From NCBI GenBank assembly GCA_039679385.1, contig JBDKVB010000051.1:1-47983 (forward strand): a stretch of 47,983 nucleotides of DNA. The letters run 5' to 3'. A model generated the notes under the pieces. That model did no database searches and had not been told where the DNA came from. It saw nothing but the letters and a program-made list of their open reading frames with translations. The DNA is from Armatimonadia bacterium. GTDB taxonomy: Bacteria > Armatimonadota > Zipacnadia > Zipacnadales > JABUFB01. Numbering within the stretch: position 1 is the stretch's first letter; each line of letters opens with the position of its first letter. Below are positions 30,610 to 41,715 of the stretch, one piece after another. A program made the translations under genes and the position numbers.

Positions 30610-33411
30610 CTACTGCAGCAACTGCTCGAAGGGCACGACTTCGCCTTTGCGTTGCATCGCCACGTGGGCAGGCTCGTAGCAGCCATAGAAGGGGACGTTG
30701 AGGTCGATCCACAGGCACAGGCGCTGCAGGTCCTCGGGCGGCAGCTTCACGTCATGGTGGCCCGTTAGGAGCATGCGCACAAGGCCGCTGCTGCGTGCAC
30801 CGAATTGCCCGGGCGTCGTCTCCGGAATCCACTCTCCCCCATTTACGCTGTCGAACCACGGAACGTACTTCTTCTGCGCGAGGCTCCGGTAGGAGCGTGT
30901 GAAGGGATCCTTGTCGCTTGCGAAGTCCCCGGTGAGCGGGAGCTTCTGCCCGCTGCCTCCCGGCTGGTGACAGGTCACGCAGTGGCGGTCGAGGACCGGC
31001 TGCACCAGGCGCTGGTAGGAGAAGGGACGGGTGCCCTCAGGACCGGCGACAGGCTGGGACGGTTCGCGCAAAGTGGCCTGGGCACGGCGGTTCGCAGGCG
31101 CGGTCTGACGCGGCTCATGGCAGCCGATGCAGGAGCGCACTTCGCCGGGTTGCAGGTAGGCAAGACTGCGCATCGTCTGGACCGCCATGCCCTTCTCGTC
31201 TAGGGCCTGGAAGTAGAGCGGCACACGAGCCGGCGCGACGAAGTTGGCAGAGCCATCCTCCTCGACGGGCACCGTTCCGATCACCGCACGGGCGCTGATC
31301 TGCCGGGCCACACTCATCTTCGGGTCGTCCGCGGCGTAGGTTGTCTTCGGCAGGATCTGCACCAGGCGCAGCCACTTCACCCGGACGGCAGGCAGTGCGG
31401 CCACGCTGTCGTAGACATTCAGCAGCATCATCCGGCCCCAGGAGGGCTGGTCGTCGCGTGGCGCCGGGTAGCGGAAGCCCGTCGGCGAAGTCTGCACGGG
31501 AGCCGCGCTCTCGATGCTGATCGTGGGATCACGGTAGATCAGCTCGCGGTTGCCGAAGCGGTCCTGGAGGTAGACGCCCAGGGTCACCGAGTGTGCTGCG
31601 GACTGCGTCGACCACCGTGGACTGTAGGAGGTCAGCCAGAAGTCGTCGCTCAGAGGCCAGGGAGTTGTGTAGGCCGACGAGGGATAGCCCTCGGCCTCGG
31701 GAAAGGCGACCTCAGGAGTCAGGCGCTCCAGGGGTGCAGAACCATCGAAGCCCAGAAGCGGATTGAGGAGAGCCAGCGAACCGTAGGCATAGCCATGGTG
31801 CGCTCCGGCGACGGCCATCAATCGCGGGGAATCCGGCACCGGCCGTACATGCCACAGGCCCCAGGGCTTGCGCTCGTGGTTGTACTGCCCGTAGATTGCC
31901 ATCGCGCCGGAACCGTCCGGGCGGCATTGCCAGAGGCTGTGCGAGAGGTTTGTGTGGCGGTCGACGTAGTCCCAGCGGGTGTAGAGAATCGAGCCGTCGT
32001 GGCCGACGGCCGGGAGCCACTCGTGGGTCTCGTGATCGGAGAGTCGCTGGAGTCCTGAGCCGTCGGCGCGCATGCGATGCAGGGTGTAGGTGGGCACCGG
32101 TCGCCCGCTGCAGCGGGTCTCTCCCCCACGCCGCGTGGACATGAAGACGAGGTCACCGTCGGGCAGCCAGCAAGGGTGGAGGTCGTCGTAGGGGCCCTCG
32201 GTGAGCTGCCGCAGGTCGGTGCCGTCGAGGTTCACGCGGAACAGGTGGAAGCGGAACCTGGCTTCGCGGGTGAAGCTGAGTTTGCGGTTGGCCTCGCCCT
32301 GGGCGTAGGCAAAGAGCACAGTGCGACCCTCCGGAGACAGCGACGGCGTGAGGAAGTTGCCGGGAGGCAGCGCGTCGCCGATCACGTCTCGCAGGCGTGG
32401 CTCACCGAAGGCGTCCTCCAACGCGAACAGCCCACCGCCGGGTCGCTGGAGACTGCCGAAGTACTGGTCGCACATGTGGGCCAGCACGCCTGGCTCGCGC
32501 TTGACGAAGAGAAGGTCGCGGAAGGTCAGCAGCGGATTGGAGAAGGCGACCTGCCGCAGGACTTCGCGGGCCGAGTAGTACAGGTCACGCTGCGACTCGC
32601 TGGAGGCCTTGCCCTGGCGATCGAGGGACTGTGCGGCGGTCTCCAACTCCTGCAGCCGCGCTGTCAGGGCCGTGCGAGGGTTGGGATCCCGCTCGCGGAA
32701 GAGGGCCAGTAGCTTCTGCGCACGGGTGAGAACCTGGCGGCTGAGGTCGATGGTATACCGGGCTCCGCTGTCGGCCTTGCCGATGCCGTGGGAGACGGAG
32801 GATCGACCCGCGCTGCTCTGGTCGGCAGGTCGTTTCAGGGCGATGTTGCGTGCGGGATCGTTGGTCGGGTAGACTTCGACTTCGTCCAGGTGGAAGGAGT
32901 TCTTGCCGGGGAGTTGGCAGCGCACCCAACGGGCCTCGACCTGCTTACCGCGCAGGTCAAGGAGCAGGGGCTTGCCATCCCTGGCACCTCCGAAGGCGGG
33001 CCCGGTGTGCTCGAAGATCGGCTTCCAGGTGATGCTGTCGGTGGAGACGAGGACCAGCATGCCCTTGGAGCGGTCCATCAGCCCCTGGGATTCGTTGCGG
33101 TTGTAGAGGAGGAGATGGTCGAGGACGAAGGCCTGGCCAAGGTCGACCTGCCACCAGGGCTTCTCCGAGTTGGTGGTGTGGAAGCCGTAGGAGCCCGTCT
33201 TCTTGCCGTCCACGGCTCCGGCTGCGTCGTCGTAGGTCGCCGCGCCCTGGATCTCGCCGGAAGGATTGGGAGGGAGCAGACTGAGGCCGGCGTCGCGGTC
33301 CCACTCGGCATGCAACTCGGCGCGGAGTGACTCGGCGATCGGCACCGCGGGGTTGGCACGGACAGTGCAGCACAAGGCGAGCAGACACGGGACCCACAGG
33401 TGGCGCCACAT
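30610..33411 (-). CDS. Secreted F5/8C-domain protein with TolB-like propeller and two c-type haem motifs (hydrazine synthase alpha-like)
   Basis: A 933-residue exported protein. The ATG at 33411 follows GGAGGACTGACG and opens a signal peptide (MWRHLWVPCLLALCCTVRA). Residues about 45-215 form an F5/8 type C (discoidin) carbohydrate-binding domain (WWQVDLGQAFVLDHLLLYN). A long middle part with repeated DG-blades (LHPCWLPDGDLVFMSTRRGG, RMRADGSGLQRLS) is a TolB/WD40-like propeller of the type seen in hydrazine synthase alpha and its many non-anammox relatives. Two CxxCH motifs (CIGCH at 761-765, CVTCH at 811-815) lie in the C-terminal cytochrome part. It may be a polysaccharide-associated electron-transfer protein. 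There are no anammox partners, so hydrazine synthesis is not implied. Confidence 0.82.
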   Translation of the reverse strand: MWRHLWVPCLLALCCTVRANPAVPIAESLRAELHAEWDRDAGLSLLPPNPSGEIQGAATYDDAAGAVDGKKTGSYGFHTTNSEKPWWQVDLGQAFVLDHLLLYNRNESQGLMDRSKGMLVLVSTDSITWKPIFEHTGPAFGGARDGKPLLLDLRGKQVEARWVRCQLPGKNSFHLDEVEVYPTNDPARNIALKRPADQSSAGRSSVSHGIGKADSGARYTIDLSRQVLTRAQKLLALFRERDPNPRTALTARLQELETAAQSLDRQGKASSESQRDLYYSAREVLRQVAFSNPLLTFRDLLFVKREPGVLAHMCDQYFGSLQRPGGGLFALEDAFGEPRLRDVIGDALPPGNFLTPSLSPEGRTVLFAYAQGEANRKLSFTREARFRFHLFRVNLDGTDLRQLTEGPYDDLHPCWLPDGDLVFMSTRRGGETRCSGRPVPTYTLHRMRADGSGLQRLSDHETHEWLPAVGHDGSILYTRWDYVDRHTNLSHSLWQCRPDGSGAMAIYGQYNHERKPWGLWHVRPVPDSPRLMAVAGAHHGYAYGSLALLNPLLGFDGSAPLERLTPEVAFPEAEGYPSSAYTTPWPLSDDFWLTSYSPRWSTQSAAHSVTLGVYLQDRFGNRELIYRDPTISIESAAPVQTSPTGFRYPAPRDDQPSWGRMMLLNVYDSVAALPAVRVKWLRLVQILPKTTYAADDPKMSVARQISARAVIGTVPVEEDGSANFVAPARVPLYFQALDEKGMAVQTMRSLAYLQPGEVRSCIGCHEPRQTAPANRRAQATLREPSQPVAGPEGTRPFSYQRLVQPVLDRHCVTCHQPGGSGQKLPLTGDFASDKDPFTRSYRSLAQKKYVPWFDSVNGGEWIPETTPGQFGARSSGLVRMLLTGHHDVKLPPEDLQRLCLWIDLNVPFYGCYEPAHVAMQRKGEVVPFEQLLQ

Positions 33412-33521: not shown

Positions 33522-33551
33522 AACACGCCCGCCGGTGAGGGCGGGCGTGTT
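33522..33551 (-). terminator. Strong hairpin between pseudopilin and cytochrome genes
   Basis: AACACGCCCGCC (33522-33533) pairs perfectly over 12 bases with GGCGGGCGTGTT (33540-33551) around a six-base loop. On the minus strand it is followed by TTGCTGTCTG, a poor T tract. It probably ends or attenuates the pilin transcript. Confidence 0.6.
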
Positions 33552-36551: not shown

Positions 36552-37373
36552 CTAGCGGCCCCAGTCGCGGGAGTAACGGAAGTCGCGGTCAATGGAGCGC
36601 GGCGAGATCTTGGCGATGAGCGGGATGCGGCGCTTGTACTGCGAGTTGCGCACCATCCGCAGGACGCGGTCGATCAGGTCGAGCGTGAAGCCCAGGTTCG
36701 CCAGTTCCTCGCGCGACCAGCGGAGATCGACCATGTGGTACAGGAGCCGGTCGGCCTCCTCGTAGGTGAAGCCGAGCTCGCCCTCGTCGGTCTGCCCGGT
36801 CCACAGGTCGGCGGTCGGGGCCTTGGCGATGATCTCCTGCGGGACCCCCAGGTAAGTGGACAGCGCCCGGACCTGTGTTTTGTACAGGTCGCCGATCGGG
36901 TTCACGGCCGAGGCCATGTCACCCCAGAGGGTAGTGTAGCCCAGCAGCGCCTCGGTCTTGTTGCTGGTGCCAATCACCATGGCGGTCTCAAGGACTGAGT
37001 GGTCATAGAGAATCGTCATGCGCTCGCGGGCCATCTTGTTCGCACGACGCAGGCGGGTAGCATCGGGATAGCGCTCGAAGTAGGCGTCGATCTGCGGCGT
37101 GATCTCGATCACGCGGGTCTCGATGCCCAACTGCTCGGCGGCCAGACGGGCATGGCCTTCGCTCTCGGGGCTGCTGGAGGCATAGGGCATGATGATGCCC
37201 AGAGTGTTCTCCGGGCCCAGGGCACGAGCAGCCAGGAAGGCGGAGAGCGTCGAGTCGATCCCGCCGGACATCCCCAGAACGCCTCGGTGGAAACCGAACT
37301 TGGTGATCTCATCGCGCAGGAATCCGGTCAGGATATCGGTGACCAGGGCGCAGTCGATATCAAGCACGCTCAT
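36552..37373 (-). CDS. nadE: NAD+ synthetase (ATP pyrophosphatase subunit)
   Basis: A 273-residue enzyme that amidates nicotinic acid adenine dinucleotide to NAD+. The PP-loop [48 protein letters not shown] and the [16 protein letters not shown] loop are diagnostic. It has no glutaminase domain; that function is probably supplied by the overlapping upstream gene. ATG 37373 has GGAGG five bases upstream, inside the preceding gene, and overlaps it by 14 bases. Confidence 0.95.
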
Positions 37374-38217
37374 CGGCGATCCTCCGCAGTTCACGCAGAG
37401 CCAGGTCCACGTTTTCCTCTTCAACGAGTGGGGCGGCAACTCTCGCGCGGCGAATCTCGGCCGGGTCGATCCGGGCATCCACTAGCGCGGGCTCAAGCAG
37501 AGGACCGCAGGCGACCGTCTTGCCGTTCGGGCCGACCGCACGGCTCTGACCCCAGAAGTTGACGCCATCCTCGTAGCCGATCCGGTTGCAGAAGAGAACG
37601 TAGGATTGGAACAGGTTCGCGTAGGTGCTCAGCATGGCCTCGTAGGTGTGGGCGATGGCGAGGCCCTCGGGATCGGCACCGCGGCTCGGGGAGTTCGAGA
37701 CCACGAGGAGGTACTGCATCCCGTCCTGCGCCATCAGGTAGGGCAGGACCGGATGCCAGAGGTCCTCGCACACCAGCAGACCCATGCGCCCGAAGCGGGT
37801 GTCGAAGGCGCGGACCGAGCGGCCGGGTGACAGGTAGCGACCCTCGTCGAACATCCCGTAGGTGGGCAGGTAGACCTTGCGGTGGCAGTGCACGACTTCG
37901 CCGCCGGACAAATACACAGCGGAGGCGAAGACGCTGCAGGCGTCGGTCTCCTCGACCAGACCGCACACGATATCGAGCTTCTGACTCGCCTCGAAGAGCG
38001 GAGCCAGCCGCTCGGCCTCGAGGTTGAGCGCGATGTCGGAGGTGAGGTCGCGCAGGTAGTAGCCGGTGAGGGAGAGCTCCGGGAAGATCAGGAGGTCGAT
38101 CCCGTCGGCGACAGCCTGCTCGGCGATCTGCAGGTGAAGGGCGAGGTTGGTGTCCAGGTCGCCGAGACGGGGCCCGATCTGAGCGAGACGCACGCGGAAG
38201 GGCGTTGTGGGTCGCAT
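37360..38217 (-). CDS. Carbon-nitrogen hydrolase, probable glutaminase subunit of NAD+ synthetase
   Basis: A 285-residue nitrilase-superfamily amidase. The catalytic triad is visible as Glu in [12 protein letters not shown], Lys in [11 protein letters not shown] and Cys in [10 protein letters not shown]. The C-terminal part ([27 protein letters not shown]) is like the linker joining glutaminase and synthetase in fused NadE enzymes. Together with the 14-base overlap with nadE, this points to a split glutamine-dependent NAD+ synthetase. ATG 38217 is chosen; an upstream GTG at 38292 would add an Ala/Pro-rich stretch. Confidence 0.85.
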
Positions 38218-38351
38218 AGTGATAGGTTCCGATTCCTTCGCACCGACGGGCGAAGGTGGTGCCGCCCGGTCTGCGTTAGCGTTCGTCGCCACGCCGCCGG
38301 GCGGCTTGTTCCTCGGTTCACCTCAAGAGCCGGCGGTGCCGGCCTGTTATG

Positions 38352-41529: not shown

Positions 41530-41552
41530 CCGTGAGGGACACGGAACCGTCG

Positions 41553-41675
41553 GTCGCTTCCCTGCGCCGGTATTATCCGGTTCAGGTCCTGGGGTCAGCA
41601 GCCCGGTGCGGACGGTCGACGTCCGATCACGCACCGGGGCCGCACTCTCAGCAGAGGGCTAGCTCCCCCAGCGAC
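41553..41675 (-). promoter_or_regulatory. TPP riboswitch (THI element)
   Basis: The minus-strand RNA has the conserved TPP aptamer: P1 GTCGCT/AGCGAC, GGGGGAGC, CTGAGAGTGCGG, an extended P3 stem (GTGCGGACGG region), CTGACCC, then GGACCTGAACCGGATAATAC and CGGCGCAGGGAAG. These match the THI box consensus closely. It precedes thiC by about 85 bases, as expected. Confidence 0.95.
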
Positions 41676-41715
41676 AAGGGTGTGGCACCAGCTTCTTTGG
41701 TTACCAACCGTTGGC

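Follow-up and report, generated by a model that had tools for sequence, protein, structure and literature searches.

We propose, with a probability of roughly 55%, that the gene at positions 30610–33411 of the window encodes an exported di-haem cytochrome that shares its fold with hydrazine synthase (HZS) alpha and has an added F-type-lectin-like domain, and that this protein does redox work while anchored on sugars and does not make hydrazine. The window is the whole stretch of DNA analysed, the 47,983 nucleotides of contig JBDKVB010000051.1 from an Armatimonadia bacterium (assembly GCA_039679385.1). The proposal follows from an HZS-alpha fold without the hydrazine-making residues, which makes the protein probably a redox protein held on sugars, one of the wider family that includes the anammox enzyme. 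The reading frame, on the minus strand, begins with ATG at 33411, ends with TAG at 30612–30610 and translates into 933 codons with no internal stop (Table 1).

Predicted fold and domain order

The likeness to HZS alpha, first suggested by an initial annotation made from the letters alone, is now backed by sequence, profile and predicted fold in agreement. The best sequence match in the PDB was the alpha subunit of the Kuenenia hydrazine synthase (E 2.5e-12, or 1.9e-31 with a 26-row profile). The AlphaFold2 model, built from 56 aligned sequences, those of the window protein and of named loci, had a mean predicted local distance difference test score of 87.7 and a predicted template-modelling score of 0.86, and Foldseek placed two hydrazine synthase alpha chains at the top of its PDB matches (E 1.4e-28 and 1.6e-28). 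In VIA-align, residues 295–922 of the model matched residues 54–805 of 5c2v chain A with a Z score of 34.1 and a root-mean-square deviation of 3.2 over 555 residues, at 24% identity. An HZS-alpha body is therefore present, preceded by an additional lectin-like domain at the N-terminus and by a three-helix stretch at residues 221–289 of the model. Propeller, middle domain and C-terminal cytochrome domain follow one another in the same order as in HzsA (5c2v chain A, NF052339), and both proteins have two CxxCH motifs; the window protein has the lectin-like domain in addition.

TolB was the second-ranking fold in VIA-align (Z 25.1). The likeness is a generic match of beta-propellers, with a best row that spans only residues 234–642 of the model at 14% identity, and TolB is not known to have a haem. 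The TolB-like propeller of the initial annotation is nevertheless borne out by the predicted fold; Pfam adds a sub-threshold PD40 repeat at residues 400–429 (E 4e-4, 20.6 bits with the cut-off at 20.9). Likewise, an eye reading of the N-terminus agrees with the proposed signal peptide, which stays putative, and both CxxCH motifs are where they had been reported.

Haem ligands set the protein apart from hydrazine synthase

Ligand positions were compared in an alignment of 119 family rows (the window protein and 118 further ones) and 14 distinct anammox HZS-alpha rows, the latter drawn from Planctomycetota genomes. Among 294 sampled Planctomycetota genomes, 17 passed the 800-bit cut-off of the NCBI model for HZS alpha. 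In both CxxCH motifs, every family row and every anammox row has the Cys and His residues, so that the motifs are not due to chance.

The residues special to HZS gave a different picture. Tyr591 is the proximal ligand of haem alpha-I in HZS (PMC12607021, PMC12758564). Tyr occupies its column, four residues past the CxxCH histidine, throughout the 14 anammox rows and in 1 of 119 family rows, the window protein having Gln769. At the column of the zinc ligand Cys303, which is Cys in 13 of 14 anammox rows, the window protein has Tyr510, and the six commonest family residues (Tyr, Phe, Asn, Ala, His and Ser) account for 107 of 119 rows; this cysteine is not universal among anammox bacteria either (PMC12758564). 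Thus the expected haem ligands are there in part: both CxxCH motifs with their histidines are present, whereas Tyr591 and Cys303 are missing. Therefore the name c-type cytochrome stands and the name hydrazine synthase falls.

The column of the distal haem alpha-II ligand, His772 in HZS, holds the candidate His886 in the window protein and has a histidine in 43 of the 119 family rows; the neighbouring His885 is the conserved one (113 of 119). The distal ligand is called absent in clade I of PMC12758564; the conserved histidine of our family, a candidate for this role, stands within one position of the His772 column. Six further residues are near-invariant in the family and absent from the anammox rows, namely Cys434 (118 of 119), Arg479 (118), Trp480 (117), Tyr482 (118), His539 (116) and Met747 (115). 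Judged from the sequence, this family-specific set would line the haem alpha-I pocket.

On the NCBIfam equivalog model for HZS alpha the window protein scored 51.2 bits against the cut-off of 800. A search for the HAO family (PF13447) returned no match in the organism's own genome or in that of a relative (G098), and 14, 8 and 9 matches in the three anammox genomes that served as positive controls, which upholds the non-anammox character of the organism as far as tested. On the ligand residues, the model score and the HAO-family negative we reject hydrazine synthesis, and we conclude that the window protein is not a hydrazine synthase. A true or cryptic enzyme of N–N bond chemistry would have in its favour the predicted fold and the occurrence of alpha- and beta-gamma-like genes in one genome; given the replacement of Tyr591 by Gln and of Cys303 by Tyr, the 51 bits of a required 800 and the lack of an HAO-family match, we hold it to be extremely improbable, a verdict that PMC12758564 shares on its own homologs.

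The window protein resembles the non-anammox HZS homologs already described (clades I–IV of PMC12758564; hzs-like genes of PMC10732223), which are likewise HZS-alpha-like with CxxCH, have lost Tyr591 and Cys303 and have a fused beta-gamma homolog within the same genome. The sets of PMC12758564 place alpha beside beta-gamma, whereas the window gene stands alone.

An F-type-lectin-like domain with conserved His and Arg

The fusion to a discoidin-type domain, proposed in the initial annotation, held up and can be sharpened. Pfam recognizes PF00754 in the N-terminal region, and the best PDB sequence matches of the domain are lectins: FBP32 (1.8e-9), a fucolectin-related protein (1.4e-7) and the platelet aggregation factor Sm-hPAF (5.7e-6). 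In the eel lectin AAA the sugar-binding triad consists of His52, Arg79 and Arg86 (PMC5712786, which gives X24 in its text and X26 by its residue numbers). The window protein reproduces this spacing with His78-X26-Arg105 and has an acidic residue, Glu107, at Arg+2. Given these lectin matches and the conserved spacing of the two sugar-contact residues, His and Arg, F-type-lectin-like is the better name. Differences from AAA and FBP32 are the cytochrome fusion and the possible third basic residue, Arg114, which stands at Arg+9 and not at +7 as in AAA, +6 to +8 being commonest in relatives.

The domain occurs in 35 of the 119 family rows. His lies 26 or 27 residues before Arg in all 33 parsable rows (27 and 6 rows, respectively), and Asp or Glu follows at Arg+2 in 28 of the 33.

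Distribution and relatives

We sampled 201 genomes of the organism's own phylum and 14 control genomes. Searching with the whole protein returned matches in 126 of the 201 genomes, and because many of these were short propeller matches, PF18582 was chosen for counting. This domain was found in 28 of 201 same-phylum genomes and 0 of 14 controls, with two matches in the own genome and up to at least 23 in a single genome. G098 (62%), G168 (61%) and G187 (62%, at a contig end) carry close relatives of the window protein.

The 80 named loci, the best of at least 568 found, belong to Planctomycetota (49), Verrucomicrobiota (11), Kiritimatiellota (6), Hydrogenedentota (3), Lentisphaerota (2), Armatimonadota (1) and Pseudomonadota (1), the others carrying no phylum. 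None of the 80 holds a 13-residue pilin motif that is typical of Armatimonadota. In a quick FastTree the nearest neighbour of the window protein is the G098 copy (support 0.996), the G168 copy joining next (1.0). In one metagenome-assembled genome of the Hydrogenedentes (L095), three bases separate a window-side relative from the gene after it, a member of the other lectin-bearing clade of this tree.

Beta-gamma-like genes as candidate partners

In HZS the alpha subunit has beta and gamma companions, encoded in the order beta, gamma, alpha at the anammox loci L200 and L205. We inspected 20 regions around relatives, picked by their likeness to the window protein and not by a beta-gamma neighbour. 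In eight of them (L064, L068, L069, L070, L073, L074, L076 and L079) the gene next to the alpha-like one encodes a protein in which a propeller is joined to a di-haem peroxidase-like domain; in L068 its reading frame looks broken. For the G098 representative, P0002, the best PDB matches are HZS beta (4.5e-41) and HZS gamma (2.8e-38), and its score on NCBI's model of the beta-gamma fusion is 215 bits, the cut-off being 1250. Beta-gamma precedes alpha in 7 of the 8 regions, L064 having beta-gamma between two alphas; in clades I–III of PMC12758564 alpha comes first.

Of the 28 sampled genomes with PF18582, 23 have a beta-gamma homolog at about 40% identity or above, against 0 of the 173 others (Fisher 1e-25, a value that overstates the evidence because the genomes are related). 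The 40% cut was set after viewing the list; relaxing it to about 150 bits raises the counts to 24 of 28 and 6 of 173. The own genome holds one strong match, on contig C128, 61% identical to P0002.

These observations could indicate that the window protein joins the MauG/CCP-like beta-gamma protein in an HZS-like complex, whose target would be a small molecule or a protein that it modifies, with the lectin domain only as an anchor. The adjoining genes in 8 of 20 regions, their co-occurrence across the 201 genomes and a gene order in 7 of 8 regions that is like that of the anammox loci all speak for such a complex. Nevertheless, the adjoining alphas are other paralogs, and on the window side of the tree only L098 has a beta-gamma gene within 300 bases. 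Furthermore, Cys165, the third haem bond of HZS gamma, falls on Leu in 4 of 4 aligned beta-gamma sequences, and the L068 partner looks broken. We consider this arrangement possible but unlikely for the window protein. The pairing with a beta-gamma gene, expected from the relatives, was not found for the window gene.

All four aligned beta-gamma sequences also have a conserved His one residue past the aligned His144 of HZS gamma (M-A/W-H-G-V-R; for instance L088:9755-11605 and L064:12437-14308).

Contig C128 of the own genome carries, at L003:2813-10712, a second HZS-alpha-like gene (an open reading frame of 1158 aa) beside two sulfatase-like genes named by eye. It is followed, with a one-base overlap, by a gene with a SUMF1/FGE domain (Pfam), and further sulfatase-like and sialidase-like genes, also named by eye, lie within 10 kb. 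A conserved sulfatase/SUMF1 neighbourhood was considered for the window gene as well and dropped, this setting being seen at the C128 copy and not at the window locus. Sulfatase homologs turned up at 8 of the 80 named loci and SUMF1 homologs at 6, counts that come without a background rate. Contig C5 of G098 (L064:6390-20000 and L065:1-9240) has five HZS-alpha-like genes, among them the closest tree relative of the window protein, in about 23 kb, with one beta-gamma-like gene, a SUMF1 gene (Pfam) and genes like ccsA and resB; this looks like a gene island for an HZS-alpha-like system.

Cytochrome c maturation

A c-type cytochrome calls for a maturation system, and here the outcome was mixed. 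The own genome encodes one CcmF-like protein with a PF01578 domain and a ResB-like tail (L089:7965-9851, contig C22). CcmE was not found in this genome (184 contigs, 96.6% complete), the same search being positive in 5 of 14 control genomes, and no separate ResB was found there, ResB-like sequence occurring only as the CcmF-like tail. The maturation test was only partly passed, because CcmE and a separate ResB are missing from what was found; an assembly of 184 contigs could be hiding the genes. In the same-family relative G098, ccsA- and resB-like genes (named by eye) lie inside the cluster of HZS-alpha-like genes.

The gaps would suit a scaffold or sugar sensor whose haem sites are unloaded or merely structural in this organism, since a CcmF-like gene is all that was found of the CcmF, CcmE and separate ResB set in a genome estimated at 96.6% completeness. 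However, CxxCH is kept in 119 of 119 rows, the own genome has a di-haem beta-gamma gene, the relative keeps its ccsA- and resB-like genes between two HZS-alpha-like genes, and the fragmented assembly could account for the gaps. We judge such a scaffold or sensor role to be quite improbable.

Proposed mechanism

The most likely function seems to be glycan-anchored electron transfer or redox chemistry. Through its lectin domain the protein would be tethered to a glycan resembling fucose or galactose, located on the cell surface or on a substrate. Haem alpha-I would have canonical ligation by His765, in a pocket formed by Cys434, Arg479, Trp480, Tyr482, His539 and Met747, while haem alpha-II would be bis-His, held by His815 and either His885 or His886. 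Haem alpha-II could then be the route by which electrons reach or leave a partner, for which the MauG/CCP-like beta-gamma homolog elsewhere in the genome appears the best candidate.

Several observations weigh against this proposal. The neighbours of the gene in the window, pilin-like upstream and universal-stress-like downstream (named by eye), are unlike a redox or glycan pathway, and no beta-gamma gene is among its neighbours (24–42 kb), the own copy being on contig C128. In the available flanks of the 80 named loci, beta-gamma appears at only 8, flanks of at least 15 kb being available in 34 of the 80. By the same test that detected the lectin domain, 84 of 119 family rows lack it, and the nine lectin-bearing alphas that adjoin beta-gamma form a clade that excludes the window protein in the quick FastTree. 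Finally, the maturation gene set of the own genome is incomplete.

Sequence features and gene neighbourhood

Table 1. Features of the cytochrome gene and its product, in window coordinates.
Feature	Position	Strand	Evidence
HZS-alpha-like di-haem c-type cytochrome gene, 933 aa	30610..33411	minus	Stop-free translation, Pfam, AlphaFold2 model, Z 34.1 to 5c2v_A
Putative Sec signal peptide, residues 1-19	33355..33411	minus	Eye reading: MWRHLWVPCLLALCCTVRA, then NPAV
F5/8C (F-type-lectin-like) domain, residues 59-170	32902..33237	minus	PF00754 E 7.6e-13, PF22633 E 8.6e-10; PDB matches to lectins
His78, first residue of lectin basic triad	33178..33180	minus	H-X26-R spacing
Arg105, second residue of lectin basic triad, then N-E	33097..33099	minus	H-X26-R spacing
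Arg114, possible third basic residue	33070..33072	minus	Arg105+9 instead of +7; assignment inferred
Beta-propeller, TolB/HZS-alpha type, about residues 295-642	31486..32529	minus	Model secondary structure, VIA-align rows; approximate limits
Cys434, family-invariant residue	32110..32112	minus	Cys in 118/119 family rows; non-Cys in 14/14 anammox rows
HZS_alpha middle domain, residues 701-766	31114..31311	minus	PF18582 E 6.8e-26, 91.1 bits against cut-off 26.6
Haem alpha-I motif CIGCH, residues 761-765	31117..31131	minus	Motif in 119/119 family and 14/14 anammox rows
Haem alpha-II motif CVTCH, residues 811-815	30967..30981	minus	Motif in 119/119 family and 14/14 anammox rows
His885-His886, candidate distal ligand of haem alpha-II	30754..30759	minus	His772 of HZS alpha aligns with His886; His885 is the conserved one

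Between the pilin-like and cytochrome genes lies a perfect 12-base inverted repeat with a 6-base loop (33522–33551), which is not in the list of the terminator scan and may separate the two transcripts. Elsewhere in the window, a thiamine pyrophosphate riboswitch is found on the minus strand at 41542–41679 (55.1 bits against 54.3), upstream of the open reading frame 41468–40122, and NAD synthetase appears at 36552–38292 as two adjacent genes, nitrilase-like and NadE-like (named by eye), and not as one fused protein.

Implications for the family

HZS was long thought to be without relatives (abstract of PMC12758564), and distant relatives of unknown function have since been published. Non-anammox HZS homologs, including co-located alpha and beta-gamma, are already in print (PMC12758564, PMC10732223). 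The lectin-fused HZS-like form was not found in the literature searched, a partial collection across which the word discoidin was not searched and from which supplements were excluded; a term search of the main text of PMC12758564, and of that text only, returned no discoidin, sulfatase or Armatimonad. Possibly new are the repeated fusion to a lectin domain and the set of invariant residues specific to the family.

Tentatively, and as a speculation we would not favour strongly, the window protein could represent a widespread family of glycan-targeted haem enzymes. These would be HZS-alpha-fold cytochromes, some of them steered by an F-type lectin, with a MauG/CCP-like beta-gamma partner and a different invariant set around alpha-I (the six residues from Cys434 to Met747), performing redox chemistry on sugars or sulfated glycans, and HZS would be a late, specialised offshoot. 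The case described here adds to the known relatives a branch that joins the HZS-alpha fold to a lectin domain, a concrete hint at a possible function outside nitrogen metabolism.

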